From contig NSIK01000010.1 of the NCBI GenBank assembly GCA_002737345.1, positions 1,014 through 65,013 on the forward strand: a DNA stretch of 64,000 nt, read 5' to 3'. The notes under the pieces were generated by a model. That model saw nothing but the letters and a program-made list of their open reading frames with translations. It did not search any database and was not told the origin of the DNA. The stretch's first letter is position 1; each line of letters opens with the position of its first letter. The DNA comes from Nitrospirota bacterium (GTDB taxonomy: Bacteria; Nitrospirota; Nitrospiria; Nitrospirales; Nitrospiraceae). The position numbers and the translations under genes are program-made. Below, piece by piece: positions 37,054 to 46,743 of the stretch.

Positions 37054-37199
37054 AAGGGATCACGGCCGAACCCGCCCTCGCATCTCGACTTCCTTCCCGT
37101 TTCGGAGTACCGTCACACTGATCGTTGGCGGACCGTCCGGCTCTCTCTTTTCTCGATGGAGCCGCCCCTACTTCTCGCTCCCTCGCGCGGAGGTGCAAG

Positions 37200-37532
37200 A
37201 TGCGGCCTCACTGGATCATCGTCGCCCTGCTCTGCGGCATCCTCACCCTCCCCTCGCTCACGCGGGCCAGTCCTGGGGATCTGGGCACTATTATTGAAGC
37301 GTTTGCCGTGCGCCAATTCCCCGATGCCCAAGGCCGCTATTGGGTGATTAACGACACCCAGTGGGAGGGGGATGAGATGCTCGTAGACATGCATACCATC
37401 GTGAGCCGGCCTCGCGAAGCAGAACCCACCGTAACCCATTTCTTACTATTGATCGTGGCGGGAGAGATCAGGGGAATTCAGAATCTTCCACTCGAACCGA
37501 ACACGGGCTGTCGCGCGGAAGAAGACGTGTAA
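37200..37532 (+). CDS. Small exported protein of unknown function
   Basis: 110 residues from ATG 37200, with GCGGAGG upstream. A Sec signal peptide (MRPHWIIVALLCGILTLPSL...RAS) precedes a mature domain of about 86 residues: DLGTIIEAFAVRQFPDAQGRYWVIN and FLLLIVAGEIRGIQNLPLE. One cysteine (NTGCRAEED) near the end. No family recognised. Independent small gene between two hairpins. Confidence 0.75.
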   Translation: MRPHWIIVALLCGILTLPSLTRASPGDLGTIIEAFAVRQFPDAQGRYWVINDTQWEGDEMLVDMHTIVSRPREAEPTVTHFLLLIVAGEIRGIQNLPLEPNTGCRAEEDV

Positions 37533-37546
37533 GGACCACAGAAAGT

Positions 37547-37582
37547 CATCGCCCGCTCCGCGTTATCGCGGAGCGGGCGATG
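37547..37582. terminator. Perfect 16-base stem hairpin
   Basis: CATCGCCCGCTCCGCG-TTAT-CGCGGAGCGGGCGATG between two convergent genes. The stem is perfect; no clear T-run on either side, so termination is likely but not classic. Confidence 0.65.
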
Positions 37583-37607: not shown

Positions 37608-38087
37608 TTACTTGATCATCAAAATCTTGCCACCAAGATGCCCTGCATGCAGCTGGCAACGATAGCTCAGCGTGTTGCCCCGCGTCGCATAGAACATGTC
37701 GCTGGTCGGAATACCAATGTACTTCGTTTCGCCAGGCTTCAAGACCACTTCTGCCTTCATGACAGTCGGCGCACCCGCGTTCTCCGCATCGGTCATCTGA
37801 AATCCATGGTCAGTTTCGCCATTGTTCGTCACCTTAAGCAAAACTGGATTCCCGGGACGAACTTTGAAATCGATGATCGTGATGGGCGGATACCACGTCT
37901 TCAAGTTGCCGATCTCGACTGCGAACAGCTGGGCATCGACGTTCAGCTCCTTGAACGCCAGCCCGACCACGGAGCCAGTCGCCAGGTCCCCGACTTCAAC
38001 TCCACCAGCCTGGAGCGCAAAGGCGGTGGGTACCCCAGTCGCGACCATCACGAGGCCCAAGAAGAGCCCTAACATCGTCTTACCCAT
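37608..38087 (-). CDS. Exported cupredoxin-like copper protein (nitrosocyanin/plastocyanin-like)
   Basis: 159 residues, with AAGGAGG and a signal peptide MGKTMLGLFLGLVMVATGVP...AFA. The beta-sandwich has the usual cupredoxin features: TIIDFKVRPGNPVLLKVTNN, ETDHGFQMTD, VVLKPGETKYIGI, and a ligand loop YRCQLHAGHLGGKILMI. Probable ligands are the His of DHGF, the Cys and His of CQLH, and a second loop His (AGH). The CQLH loop resembles nitrosocyanin (recalled as CQLHPKNIH), but the nitrosocyanin Glu position is His here; against plastocyanin, the axial Met is replaced by His. Probably a periplasmic electron carrier or copper sensor. It has its own 5' leader with a hairpin. Confidence 0.85.
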   Translation of the reverse strand: MGKTMLGLFLGLVMVATGVPTAFALQAGGVEVGDLATGSVVGLAFKELNVDAQLFAVEIGNLKTWYPPITIIDFKVRPGNPVLLKVTNNGETDHGFQMTDAENAGAPTVMKAEVVLKPGETKYIGIPTSDMFYATRGNTLSYRCQLHAGHLGGKILMIK

Positions 38088-38123
38088 GACCTACCTCCTT
38101 AAAAAAGAAGAAGAAAGTGATTA

Positions 38124-41665: not shown

Positions 41666-42376
41666 TTAGGTCAGTCGCGGCGCTTCGGCGTCCTTGGCTT
41701 CCTCTTTTGTTTTCGGCTTATAGCCCATCCGGTCCAAGACCTTCATCACCCGCGTCTTCAAGCGATCGTCTGCATCGGCCAGCGCGGTGGCCAAGGGCTC
41801 GACGGCAGGCTTGCCAATCTTCCGGATAATTTCCGTCACGGATTGCCGAATCTCATCTTCCTCCGACACCAGTAGGGGCACGAGCGAGGACACGGCTGGC
41901 CCGCCGATTTTGATCAACGAATCGTAGGCACGCTGCCGGACATCGCCGACTTCATCCGCCAAGGCATCGACCAGGGGGCGCACGGCGCGCACTTCTTTCA
42001 GTTCACCTAACACTTCCGCCGCATATTTCCGATTGAGCCAATGGGTGTCTTTCAGATCCAGCAGCATCGCGTCAGCGCGCGCCGCATTGGGATCCTTCGC
42101 GCGAATTCGGAAGCTCTTGGCAACCCGCTTGCCACCTTCTTCAACGACACGGATCGTGGCGCCATCCCCGACCTTGAGCTTCTTCAGCTCTTCAAGCGCC
42201 TCGTCGTCCACATCCAGCACGACTGTTTTGCCGTCGTAGGCCAACAGTTCGACTTCGATCTGCTTCGTCTCAGGGTTCACCGCAACGACCCGTTCCGTCA
42301 CGAGATTAAACCCGTCCTTCTTCACGCCGCCCTTCGGACCGATCTGAATCAACTTTGCAGGAGCTTCATCCGCCAT
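41666..42376 (-). CDS. HEAT-repeat protein with N-terminal beta domain (fifth of the cluster)
   Basis: 236 residues, last gene of the HEAT operon. Residues 1-95 are not HEAT: strands such as LIQIGPKGGVKKDGFNLVTERVVAV, ETKQIEVELLAYDGKTVVL and GDGATIRVVEEGGKRVAKSFRIR suggest a small beta-barrel. From about 100 come four HEAT repeats (WLNRKYAAEVLGELKEVRAVRPLV, VRQRAYDSLIKIGGPAVSSLV, IRQSVTEIIRKIGKPAVEPLA). It ends VLDRMGYKPK, like the other cluster members. No signal peptide. Function unknown; HEAT repeats bind proteins. Confidence 0.85.
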   Translation of the reverse strand: MADEAPAKLIQIGPKGGVKKDGFNLVTERVVAVNPETKQIEVELLAYDGKTVVLDVDDEALEELKKLKVGDGATIRVVEEGGKRVAKSFRIRAKDPNAARADAMLLDLKDTHWLNRKYAAEVLGELKEVRAVRPLVDALADEVGDVRQRAYDSLIKIGGPAVSSLVPLLVSEEDEIRQSVTEIIRKIGKPAVEPLATALADADDRLKTRVMKVLDRMGYKPKTKEEAKDAEAPRLT

Positions 42377-42405
42377 GATGTATATCCTTTACCTCGAAAT
42401 AAAAA

Positions 42406-43170
42406 TTACGGCTTTGCTTTCCATCCGAAACTTGCCAGGACACCCTCGACCGTTTCCTGCACCATTGTGTTCTCATCTTCGAGCAGCGGGAGCAAGGGAT
42501 CGATCGCTTCCTTCGCCCCGAGCCGCGCAAGCGACTCCGCCGCATTCCGCCGCACGAGCCAATCTTCATCCTTAAGCGATTCAATCAACGAGGCGACTCC
42601 GCGCGCATCGCCGATCTTGCCCAAGGCTTCGGCCGCATGGCGCCGCACCATCCAATTATTACCCAAAAGTCCCTCGATCAAGGCATCCACGGCCCGCGCG
42701 TCGCCGATCTTTTTCAGCACCCGCGCCACGTCCTCGCGTACCGTATTATCGGTCAGTGCCTCGATCAACCCCGGCACCGCCCGAGCATCGCCAATACGCT
42801 CCAACGCCCACACGGCAGCGGTCCGCACCGCGCCGTCTTTGTCCTTGAGAGCCTTCACCAAGGGATCAATGCCCCGCGGATCTTTCAGCTTCCCCAACCC
42901 AGCTGCCGCCTGTTCGCGAATCGCCCATTCATCGTCCGTCAGCGCCTCGATCAAGGGATCGACGACGGTGGGACCGATCCGCACGATCGCGCTGGTCGCC
43001 GCTTCCCTAATCAACACATCTTCGTCCGCCATGAGCGCGATCAGCGGCCCCACTGCGTCCTCACCCACCTGACTCAAACTGGCAATCGCATGGTCGCGAA
43101 GCGTTTCGTTGTCGTCTCGAAGAGCTCCGATCAGTTGTTCAATCCGTTCCACCTGCACATTGTCACTCAT
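42406..43170 (-). CDS. HEAT-repeat protein (fourth of the cluster)
   Basis: 254 residues from ATG 43170, overlapping the previous gene by eight bases (ATGAGTGA). It is almost entirely near-consensus HEAT/PBS-lyase-type repeats of 31 residues: about eight copies such as AIREQAAAGLGKLKDPRGIDPLVKAL and MVRRHAAEALGKIGDARGVASLIESL. It ends with the cap LASFGWKAKP. No catalytic PBS-lyase residues known to me; a scaffold or adaptor is most likely. Confidence 0.88.
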   Translation of the reverse strand: MSDNVQVERIEQLIGALRDDNETLRDHAIASLSQVGEDAVGPLIALMADEDVLIREAATSAIVRIGPTVVDPLIEALTDDEWAIREQAAAGLGKLKDPRGIDPLVKALKDKDGAVRTAAVWALERIGDARAVPGLIEALTDNTVREDVARVLKKIGDARAVDALIEGLLGNNWMVRRHAAEALGKIGDARGVASLIESLKDEDWLVRRNAAESLARLGAKEAIDPLLPLLEDENTMVQETVEGVLASFGWKAKP

Positions 43171-44263
43171 CGTCGTCCTGCCCTCCCTGGCTCCCGACAG
43201 GCGTCCCGTCGAGCGCTTCCAGTTTATCGGCAATCAAGCCTGAATTGTACGCAACAAGGCCATCCCGGTCTGTCCTCAACCGGTCGAACAATTCTTTGTA
43301 CGGACGCAGCACTTCCACATCCTTCACTTTAGCTAAAGCTTCCATGGCAAAGACCCTAAGCGGGCGAATGGGAATGGCCTCGATATAAAGTTGCGATGGC
43401 CTGGCATCGCCGATCAACCCCAGCGACTTCATCGCCAGTTCCTTCACGCCCGTATCCTTATCGCTCCGCAGCCGTTCCATCAAAGGCTCTACCGCGCGGA
43501 CATCACCGATCTTACCCAGCAAGTCGGCCGCGGCTTCACGGATGACCCAATCATCGTCCTCAAGATACTCGATTAAGATCTCCACGCTCGGACGCCCGAT
43601 GGCCAGGAGATTGATCACGGTGCTCATGCGAGCCTCTTCCCGTTCGCTCAACTCTTCAATCGCGCGAAGATTGTCGAAGACCTCGTTGATGCGCTCACGA
43701 ATGGCGGTCAACTTCTTCAGCGTCCGCACGGCAATGTCGCGAATGGCCGGCTGCCCCATGGCCGCGATAAAGGCATCCGACGACCGGGGGTCGAGCAGAC
43801 GCTCCAACATCGTCGCGGCCATGATCTGCGCTTCCGGATCTTGATGGGTCAGCAGCGTGCTCAAAGGCCCGATGGCATTGGGAATCACCCCTAACAACTG
43901 CGAGACCACCAGGCGAGTCTCCTCATCCTTCGATTCATAGAACAGGGAGGTCAGAGCCGCGGCGGTCGTCTCGTCCAGCACACCGGCCATATGTTCCAGC
44001 GCCGATGCGCCGGCCTTGCGGACCGCTGCATCTTCATCGCGCAGCAAACCGACCAGAGGCACACCGGCTTGCGGATCGTTCACGCGAGCCAACATAGCGG
44101 CCCCCTCGGCTTTCAGCGCCGGCGCACCGGTCGCCAGCACCTCGACCAACGCCTGCACCGCGCGGGGGCCGCCGGACAGGCAGGCCGCCGTCGCTCTCAT
44201 CCGTCGCCAATCCTCTTCATGGACGAGCTCGGATACTAGCGTTTCAATCGTTTCTTTGGCCAT
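43163..44263 (-). CDS. HEAT-repeat protein (third of the cluster)
   Basis: 366 residues with more divergent HEAT repeats, for example RMRATAACLSGGPRAVQALVEVLATG and WVIREAAADLLGKIGDVRAVEPLMERL. A non-repeat charged stretch in the middle (about 190-225; IRERINEVFDNLRAIEELSEREEARM) may form a coiled coil. The end (LEALDGTPVGSQGGQDDDE) is acidic and disordered. It is 17 bases after the second HEAT gene. Cytoplasmic, function unknown. Confidence 0.85.
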   Translation of the reverse strand: MAKETIETLVSELVHEEDWRRMRATAACLSGGPRAVQALVEVLATGAPALKAEGAAMLARVNDPQAGVPLVGLLRDEDAAVRKAGASALEHMAGVLDETTAAALTSLFYESKDEETRLVVSQLLGVIPNAIGPLSTLLTHQDPEAQIMAATMLERLLDPRSSDAFIAAMGQPAIRDIAVRTLKKLTAIRERINEVFDNLRAIEELSEREEARMSTVINLLAIGRPSVEILIEYLEDDDWVIREAAADLLGKIGDVRAVEPLMERLRSDKDTGVKELAMKSLGLIGDARPSQLYIEAIPIRPLRVFAMEALAKVKDVEVLRPYKELFDRLRTDRDGLVAYNSGLIADKLEALDGTPVGSQGGQDDDE

Positions 44264-44280
44264 AATATTTCCGCGGCCCG

Positions 44281-45372
44281 TTACACCCGCCCAGCCCGCC
44301 AGCCTACTCTAGCCAGGGTATCTTTGACATGATAGAGAATATTCTCATCCGACTCACGGGTCAGCACGGCCAGCAACGGCGCAATCACGGCATCTCCGAA
44401 TCGGGTCAGCGCCTCCGCTGCTTCCGCCCGCGTCACCGTATAACGGAGCGCCTTCATGAGCGACGGGATGGCCGCTTCGTCTCGGATCGTACCCAAAGCC
44501 CTGACCGCCGCGCCCATCGTCAGGATTTCTTCATCCCACTGATCGCTGCAGCCATCAATCGGGCGCGCCGCCTCCGGTTGATCCACTCGCTCAATGACCG
44601 CAATCAACATTGGCACCGCAGAACGGTGGCCGATCCGGCCCAACGCCTCAACCGCCAGAGGCCGCAGCCCAGTGGTGTTCATCGCCGTCACTAGAAACTC
44701 AACGGCTCGCGCATCCCCAATCTGACCCAGCGCGCGGACTGCATCCTCGCGAACCGCCCGATCCCGATCGTTGAAGAGCACCGATAGCAGAGGGTCGACC
44801 GCCTCTGGCGACCTGGTTTTCCCCAAGGCCTCAACCGCATGCAGCCGCACGAGCCATTCCGTATGGGTCAGCGCGTCGAGCAGCGACGAGAGGGCCGCCT
44901 CCCCAATCGCCGCAAGGGCCGTTGAGGCCTCCTCTCGCACGGCCTTCACCTTGTCCTGTAACAACGGCACCAGCGGCGCCACCGATTCAGGATCTTGAAT
45001 CCGCCCTAACGCTTTAGCCGCATGCATCCGCACGATCCAGTCGGGGCTCTTGAGCGCCTTGATGAGTGGCGCGACCACCCGCACATCGGCAATAGCGGCT
45101 AGCACCGACGAGGCCAACTCCTGAACTGTGAGCACCGGATCGGAGAGACACGCCCCCAACGTCGTCACGGCCGGCTCGCCGATAGACAAGAGAGCGCCAG
45201 TCGCCGCATCGCGCACTGCGCGGTCACCGTCACGCAACACAGAAACCAACGGCGCCACCGCCCTCGGATCCCGCAGCCGTCCCAGCATCGTGGCGGCCTC
45301 TTCACGAATCGCCCAATCTTCGTCCTTGAGCGCCGCGATCTGTTCGGCTACTGCGTCTGCCATATCGTTCAT
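44281..45372 (-). CDS. HEAT-repeat protein (second of the cluster)
   Basis: 363 residues, about ten HEAT repeats from the first residue on: DWAIREEAATMLGRLRDPRAVAPLVSVL, DWIVRMHAAKALGRIQDPESVAPLVPLL, EWLVRLHAVEALGKTRSPEAVDPLLSVL. A less regular insert lies near 260-290 (VIERVDQPEAARPIDGCSDQWDEE). It ends LARVGWRAGRV, again the Gly-Trp cap. Six bases after the first HEAT gene. Confidence 0.88.
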   Translation of the reverse strand: MNDMADAVAEQIAALKDEDWAIREEAATMLGRLRDPRAVAPLVSVLRDGDRAVRDAATGALLSIGEPAVTTLGACLSDPVLTVQELASSVLAAIADVRVVAPLIKALKSPDWIVRMHAAKALGRIQDPESVAPLVPLLQDKVKAVREEASTALAAIGEAALSSLLDALTHTEWLVRLHAVEALGKTRSPEAVDPLLSVLFNDRDRAVREDAVRALGQIGDARAVEFLVTAMNTTGLRPLAVEALGRIGHRSAVPMLIAVIERVDQPEAARPIDGCSDQWDEEILTMGAAVRALGTIRDEAAIPSLMKALRYTVTRAEAAEALTRFGDAVIAPLLAVLTRESDENILYHVKDTLARVGWRAGRV

Positions 45373-45378
45373 AGCCTG

Positions 45379-46743
45379 CTAACCCCGTTGCGCAAAATCT
45401 CCCGACGGACCGAATCGGCCCGTGTCACCCAGGGGCATGTCCACCCGGGCATTGTCGACCACGCTCGAATTGACGGTGATGTCTTCCGGCGCCGGCATCC
45501 AGCCCAATTTTTCAAGAGTCTCCAGCGTCAATTGCCGCAAGGCATCTTTCGCCGTGAGTCGAACCGACGCGTAGGACAGCACTCGCTCCCCTTCTTTAAC
45601 CACTTCAGACGCTTTCGGATCATACAAAAAGGCAATCAGCGGCTCAATCGCCGTATCGCCGATGGTTGCCAGGGCGGCGCTGGCCTTTTCACGCAAGACT
45701 CCATCCTTCAAGAGCATGATCAAATCGGGAATGACGCGCGGATCGCGGAACTGACCCAGCGCCGTGGCCGCCGCTTCCTTAATGAAGGCATCTTCGCTGA
45801 CGATACAACCGGGAGTCGGGGTTCCGTCCTGGCGAATGCCCTTCCCCTTCAACGCATCCAGCACCGGCGGCAGGGCACGAGGATCGCCGATCATGCCAAG
45901 CGACGCAATGGCGTGCCGCTTCACGACCCCGTCCTTCATCGCTTCAATCAAGGCATCGATGGCCCGGGGATCGCCGATCTGGCCCAGCGCGATCGTGGCA
46001 TCTTCGCGGACGGCCCGGTCCGGATCTTTCAACGTGGCAATCAGAATGTCGACGACCTTCGAGTCTCGCACCCAGGTCCGGCCGATTTGATAGTCAGTGG
46101 TCATCCCGCCGAGCGCGCGGGCGGCATGGCATCGGACGATAAAATCTTTATCCGTGAGACATTCCATCAGCGGATCGACGGACGGCTGGCCGATCGAGAT
46201 GAGGGCAGTCCCGGCCGTTTCTCGCACCGTTTTCGAGGGATCGCGGAATAGTTTGGTCAGGACCGGGATCGCTTTGGGATCGCGGATCTTGCCCAACGCC
46301 TCTGCTGCCGCGCTCTTCACGGCGCCGTCGCGATCACGACAGACGAGCATGAGAGCCTCGGCGGCTTTCGGGTCTTTGATTTCCCCGCAGGTTTTCGCGG
46401 CATGTTCACGGACGCGCCACCGCTCGTCCTTCAATGCGGCGAGTAGGCGATCGACCGTTACGGCTCCCATCGCGGCCATGGCCTCGACGGCATCGTTCCG
46501 CACATCCATGGTGGAGTCGTTGAACAGAACAATGAGCGCTTCCACGGCTTTGGGCCCGCCGATCTTGGCCGCGCCACGGCCCGCATGGGCCCGCACGGTC
46601 CAATACTCATCCCCGCACGCGCCAATCAGCGCGTCCAACGTGGCGGGGTTTGCAAGTTCGGCGAGGGCCTTGGCCGCCTCTTCACGTGTGGCATCGTCGG
46701 CATCCTCGAGTGCTTCTAAGAGATCATCAAGCGCCTGGCCCAT
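45379..46743 (-). CDS. HEAT-repeat protein (first and longest of the cluster)
   Basis: 454 residues, about twelve HEAT repeats (ATREEAAKALAELANPATLDALIGA, RWRVREHAAKTCGEIKDPKAAEALMLV, AVREDATIALGQIGDPRAIDALIEAM). Two repeats carry insertions: GGMTTDYQIGRTWVRDSKV and GIRQDGTPTPGCIVSEDAF. After the cap LEKLGWMPAPEDI there is a tail (VVDNARVDMPLGDTGRFGPS) without repeats. It follows the small exported protein by 13 bases. No signal peptide, so it stays in the cytoplasm while its two upstream neighbours are exported. Confidence 0.88.
   Translation of the reverse strand: MGQALDDLLEALEDADDATREEAAKALAELANPATLDALIGACGDEYWTVRAHAGRGAAKIGGPKAVEALIVLFNDSTMDVRNDAVEAMAAMGAVTVDRLLAALKDERWRVREHAAKTCGEIKDPKAAEALMLVCRDRDGAVKSAAAEALGKIRDPKAIPVLTKLFRDPSKTVRETAGTALISIGQPSVDPLMECLTDKDFIVRCHAARALGGMTTDYQIGRTWVRDSKVVDILIATLKDPDRAVREDATIALGQIGDPRAIDALIEAMKDGVVKRHAIASLGMIGDPRALPPVLDALKGKGIRQDGTPTPGCIVSEDAFIKEAAATALGQFRDPRVIPDLIMLLKDGVLREKASAALATIGDTAIEPLIAFLYDPKASEVVKEGERVLSYASVRLTAKDALRQLTLETLEKLGWMPAPEDITVNSSVVDNARVDMPLGDTGRFGPSGDFAQRG

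Follow-up and report, generated by a model that had tools for sequence, protein, structure and literature searches.

A nitrosocyanin-related cupredoxin with a predicted Cys-His3 copper site, conserved in Nitrospira and its relatives

Nitrosocyanin and its relative in Nitrospira

Nitrospira are nitrite oxidisers, some of which also oxidise ammonia. Nitrosocyanin is a red copper protein known from ammonia oxidisers, where it is abundant (PMC5960693); it has been called the only well-characterised natural type 2 'red' cupredoxin (PMC4059628), and its own function is unsettled. The ncyA gene was not found in comammox Nitrospira by Kits et al. (2019; PMC6478695), where another candidate was called for, and the Nitrospina genome paper notes two cupredoxin-like proteins among those genes that are conserved with the Nitrospira and Kuenenia NXR clusters (PMC3578206).

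The window, by which we mean the whole 64,000-nucleotide stretch of DNA analysed, carries a single open reading frame, ATG to stop, at 37608..38087 for a 159-residue secreted cupredoxin related to nitrosocyanin; the gene and its parts all lie on the minus strand. The frame is exactly where the original prediction had placed it, the motifs named there are found in it, and its orthologs rule out a chance reading frame. A signal peptide, judged by eye, covers approximately residues 1-24 (MGKTMLGLFLGLVMVATGVPTAFA; 38016..38087), and the ortholog alignment marks out a conserved N-terminal extension, QAGGVEVGDLATGSVVGLAFKELNV (37938..38012), which is found neither in the single-domain relatives nor in the aligned part of nitrosocyanin. 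The protein then shows the motif TDHGFQM and, near its C-terminal end, YRCQLHAGHLGGKILMIK, with the loop RCQLHAGHLGG.

The host is inferred to be a nitrite oxidiser, in line with the nitrifier lineage assumed at the outset: the lineage is nitrite-oxidising, and an NxrA-like frame of 1149 aa, scoring below the curated cut-off, lies on the same contig as the cupredoxin gene. No AMO was found in the window genome, which measures 1.67 Mb at 91.6% completeness, falls below the 1.8-4.4 Mb of all other members of its genus (among them G161 with 1.8 Mb at 99%) and looks like a streamlined Nitrospira.

While the window protein alone returned nothing useful from NCBIfam or the PDB, the suggested kinship with nitrosocyanin emerged at the level of the family. 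First, the best PDB match of a family profile that took in single-domain relatives from the phylum is nitrosocyanin itself (1IBY, E 4.2e-11), followed by a Cupredoxin 1 structure (4e-4). Next, a profile drawn chiefly from the Nitrospira family, with the single-domain sequences left out, still aligned to 1IBY in hhalign with a probability of 95% (E 8.6e-9), the sets being separated by a simple sequence rule that does not split them perfectly cleanly. Finally, the profile alignment to the 1IBY chain pairs His94 (codon 37806..37808, in DHGF) with Glu60, Cys144 (37656..37658) with Cys95, His147 (37647..37649) with His98 and the third histidine, His150 (37638..37640), with His103. These four residues of 1IBY are the copper ligands reported for nitrosocyanin (Lieberman et al. 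2001). The original prediction gave the motif CQLHPKNIH and the glutamate correctly, as the 1IBY chain reads WCQLHPKNIH and ISEGF, and the histidine proposed to replace the glutamate is the His94 that aligns with Glu60.

The two proteins share the cupredoxin domain and the cysteine and two histidines of the C-terminal loop, but differ in several respects. Glu60 of nitrosocyanin is replaced by histidine in 113 of 113 ligand-bearing sequences, the loop is two residues shorter (C-x2-H-x2-H against C-x2-H-x4-H), and the Nitrospira protein has the additional conserved N-terminal stretch and a 9-residue insertion after HGF. Single-domain relatives gave E values of up to 2e-13 with TIGR03096, far under its cut-off, and the curated threshold of 142.85 bits was reached in none of 30 genomes. 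Because the alignment to 1IBY stands against scores so far below the cut-off, the Nitrospira cupredoxin is, on sequence comparison, homologous to nitrosocyanin yet outside the nitrosocyanin family as curated. The identification of the window protein as nitrosocyanin itself was rejected on account of the glutamate-to-histidine exchange and the TIGR03096 scores.

Conservation, copies and phylogeny

Among 84,980 species genomes scanned there are 34 further loci at 69-88% identity, nearly all from Nitrospira or Nitrospiraceae/Nitrospirae, and the xHGF and C-x2-H-x2-H motifs are present in every one of them. His94, Cys144, His147 and His150, numbered in the full-length protein, are invariant in the alignment of 29 orthologs, in which the commonest loop is CHLHPAHVGG, that of the window protein being CQLHAGHLGG. 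Among the ligand residues of the fetched loci the set His, Cys, His, His occurs at the four aligned positions in 113 distinct sequences of the phylum, so that the predicted Cys-His3 set is conserved well beyond the window. The cupredoxin profile matches 166 of 175 Nitrospiraceae genomes and 22 of 22 genera, some of the matching genomes possibly having only a ligand-less paralog or fragments, and it also matches the sampled genomes of the sister family f2. Matches were found in 58 of the 61 AMO-bearing (comammox) Nitrospiraceae genomes, the exceptions being G074, G097 and G150, and the frequency in genomes without AMO is the same. No relatives were found in the viral contigs searched, and the plasmids gave one weak match, in Cytobacillus. 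The literature searched, outside subscription journals, yielded no description of the protein.

The four residues and the loop are also those of single-domain HGF/C-x2-H-x2-H cupredoxins of Nitrospirota (L129-L134, L152, L171-L175), which are without the N-terminal extension and the insertion after HGF, have about 27-38% identity to the Nitrospira family and bear no family name in the libraries searched. The tree, built on 131 columns, groups the main, ligand-bearing family with its copies in a single clade (100/99), which a starred branch (97/90) joins with a part of the single-domain HCHH proteins, most of them from family f3. Nitrosocyanin lies on a long branch whose position is not resolved.

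Several other groups lack the ligands or differ in architecture. Many genomes have a second copy in which the ligands are lost (ERGF, YRDHLNPK), both in Nitrospira (L122-L128) and in other genera and family f2 (L102-L105). Given the starred branches, the ligand-less label must change at least three times on the tree, and the ligand-less copies tested are under purifying selection, with dN/dS of approximately 0.04-0.11. Another conserved single-domain group is without the cysteine and two histidines but retains the third histidine (QGFAID ... YYNQLDKAHIGGLLYIKR; L136, L154, L176-L178, L180, L181). In family f3 one 452-aa open frame (L153, genome G435) couples a Cys-His3 nitrosocyanin-like domain to a long region on its C-terminal side.

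The predicted copper site

The window protein scores 15.7 bits with Cupredoxin_1 (PF13473), below the gathering score of 27, which counts against the reading preferred here; two relatives pass this cut-off with 49.1 (L100/L129) and 57.2 bits (L101/L131), and together with the alignment to 1IBY these single-domain proteins bear out the assignment to the cupredoxins. AlphaFold models reached a pLDDT of 50.5 for 29 mature orthologs and 58.5 for 28 core sequences; they consist mostly of strands, and ligand geometry could not be judged in them. Foldseek returned no cupredoxin for either of these low-pLDDT models, which likewise counts against the preferred reading, and its matches to carbohydrate-binding and other beta proteins were disregarded in view of the same pLDDT values. 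As the models are too poor for the geometry of the site, copper, colour and function are inferred.

The loop of amicyanin has the spacing C-x2-H-x2-X. This spacing and the HG-type histidine are common to the Nitrospira family and the Met-type short-loop cupredoxins (L135, L150, L156), which have methionine as the axial residue, as does amicyanin, whereas the Nitrospira family has histidine. In Met-type loops from the same phylum (FCHLHPGMRG, RCDLHPGMKG, YCPYHKGMRG) the methionine aligns with the position of His150, three residues after the second ligand histidine, and these C-x2-H-x2-M relatives identify that position as the axial slot. The axial methionine, or Gln/Leu, of the plastocyanin or amicyanin kind is absent. 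The likeness to plastocyanin in the original prediction is therefore loose, since the replacement of the axial methionine by histidine stands but the C-x2-H-x4-M spacing does not, the match being to the amicyanin-length loop. That His150 would face the metal has in these Met-type relatives its best evidence short of a structure.

The equatorial His, Cys and His of type 1 (blue) cupredoxins are all present in the Nitrospira family, and such a complete set would suit an ordinary type 1 blue copper carrier with conventional spectra and potential, in which His94, Cys144 and His147 bind the metal and His150 points away or is weakly bound. Seven sequences of one paralog group keep the third histidine (QNDH/QSDH) with the other three ligands gone, which fits a structural role that this residue may have and weakens the argument from conservation for His150 as a ligand. 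Nevertheless, His150 occurs without exception in the 113 sequences that bear the ligands, stands at the axial-methionine position of the relatives and aligns with a copper ligand of nitrosocyanin, His103, and an ordinary blue carrier appears rather unlikely, if still worth serious consideration.

We consider it probable, at roughly 0.6, that the protein belongs to the nitrosocyanin superfamily as a soluble cupredoxin of the periplasm, that its native Cys-His3 site is formed by His94, Cys144, His147 and His150, and that it is most likely a copper redox protein. His94, Cys144 and His147 would bind copper in the manner of type 1 sites, His150 on its amicyanin-length loop would fill the axial place held by methionine in the Met-type relatives, and equatorial His, Cys and His with an axial His would make a four-coordinate site. 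The strong axial nitrogen donor would move the site away from classic blue towards green or red (type 1.5 or 2) and lower its potential. The expected colour and potential follow from the engineered Cys-His3 site of azurin Met121His, which a title cited in PMC4059628 calls type 1.5; its ligand set is that predicted for the Nitrospira protein, but it is man-made, with a longer azurin loop and an additional Gly45 carbonyl.

Expression, neighbourhood and possible role

The ribosome-site scan located a consensus Shine-Dalgarno sequence, TAAGGAGGT, 5 nt before the ATG (38093..38101, minus strand). A strong form precedes 30 of 31 orthologs, compared with 0 of 38 window frames of at least 250 aa, some of them possibly spurious, and on this ground suggests high expression of the Nitrospira cupredoxin. 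A terminator-like hairpin of 16 pairs lies 3′ of the gene (37547..37582, minus strand), about one such site being expected by chance in the scan, and there are no Rfam matches near the gene.

The neighbours conserved in both families, named by eye and partly on the opposite strand, are a 135-aa protein, DUF192 and Rieske, to which a ferredoxin and a spermidine synthase-like protein are added in f1, and no conserved neighbour indicates a pathway. The gene of the 135-aa protein, which is apparently secreted, occupies 37125-37532, convergent with the cupredoxin gene, and stands beside it in both families at approximately 30-97% identity. Consecutive genes for HEAT-repeat-like proteins lie at 41666-46743 on the minus strand. 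An operon with nitrification genes was rejected, as none are among the conserved neighbours.

A protein that is ubiquitous and probably abundant, with a soft ligand and imidazoles suited to Cu(I), could also be a copper storage protein or chaperone, its Cys-His3 site holding Cu(I) for periplasmic enzymes instead of acting as a redox carrier; single cupredoxin-type sites are usual for electron transfer, though, and no copper-handling genes were recognised among the neighbours, and we regard this as very improbable. Only slightly less improbable is a functional counterpart of nitrosocyanin, whose copper site would be open or labile and would bind NO or other nitrogen oxides arising from nitrite oxidation, or convert them. 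The kinship of the two sequences and the candidate sought in place of ncyA in comammox Nitrospira (PMC6478695) speak for it, but three histidines and one cysteine would leave less space for an exogenous ligand than the nitrosocyanin site, the cupredoxin is present irrespective of AMO, and the locus has no link to nitrification genes. Moreover, according to work cited in PMC13170337 (2026), redox activity is unlikely for nitrosocyanin itself.

For the Cys-His3 redox protein that we favour, the most likely role would be periplasmic electron transfer or redox buffering in nitrite-oxidising bacteria, in which it would be abundant. The fuller proposal, that an abundant native Cys-His3 copper protein intermediate between blue and red replaces nitrosocyanin in nitrogen-oxide or electron handling in nitrite-oxidising and comammox Nitrospira, is a long shot. 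Its near-universal presence and strong ribosome site make the protein a good candidate for biochemical study, and, with the blue-copper histidine at the glutamate place and the axial histidine of nitrosocyanin, the predicted site would offer a natural test of which ligand reddens copper. Nearly every sequenced relative of Nitrospira has this secreted cupredoxin with its unusual conserved set of four predicted Cys-His3 ligands; Nitrospira, from whose comammox members ncyA was reported missing (PMC6478695), do have relatives of nitrosocyanin.
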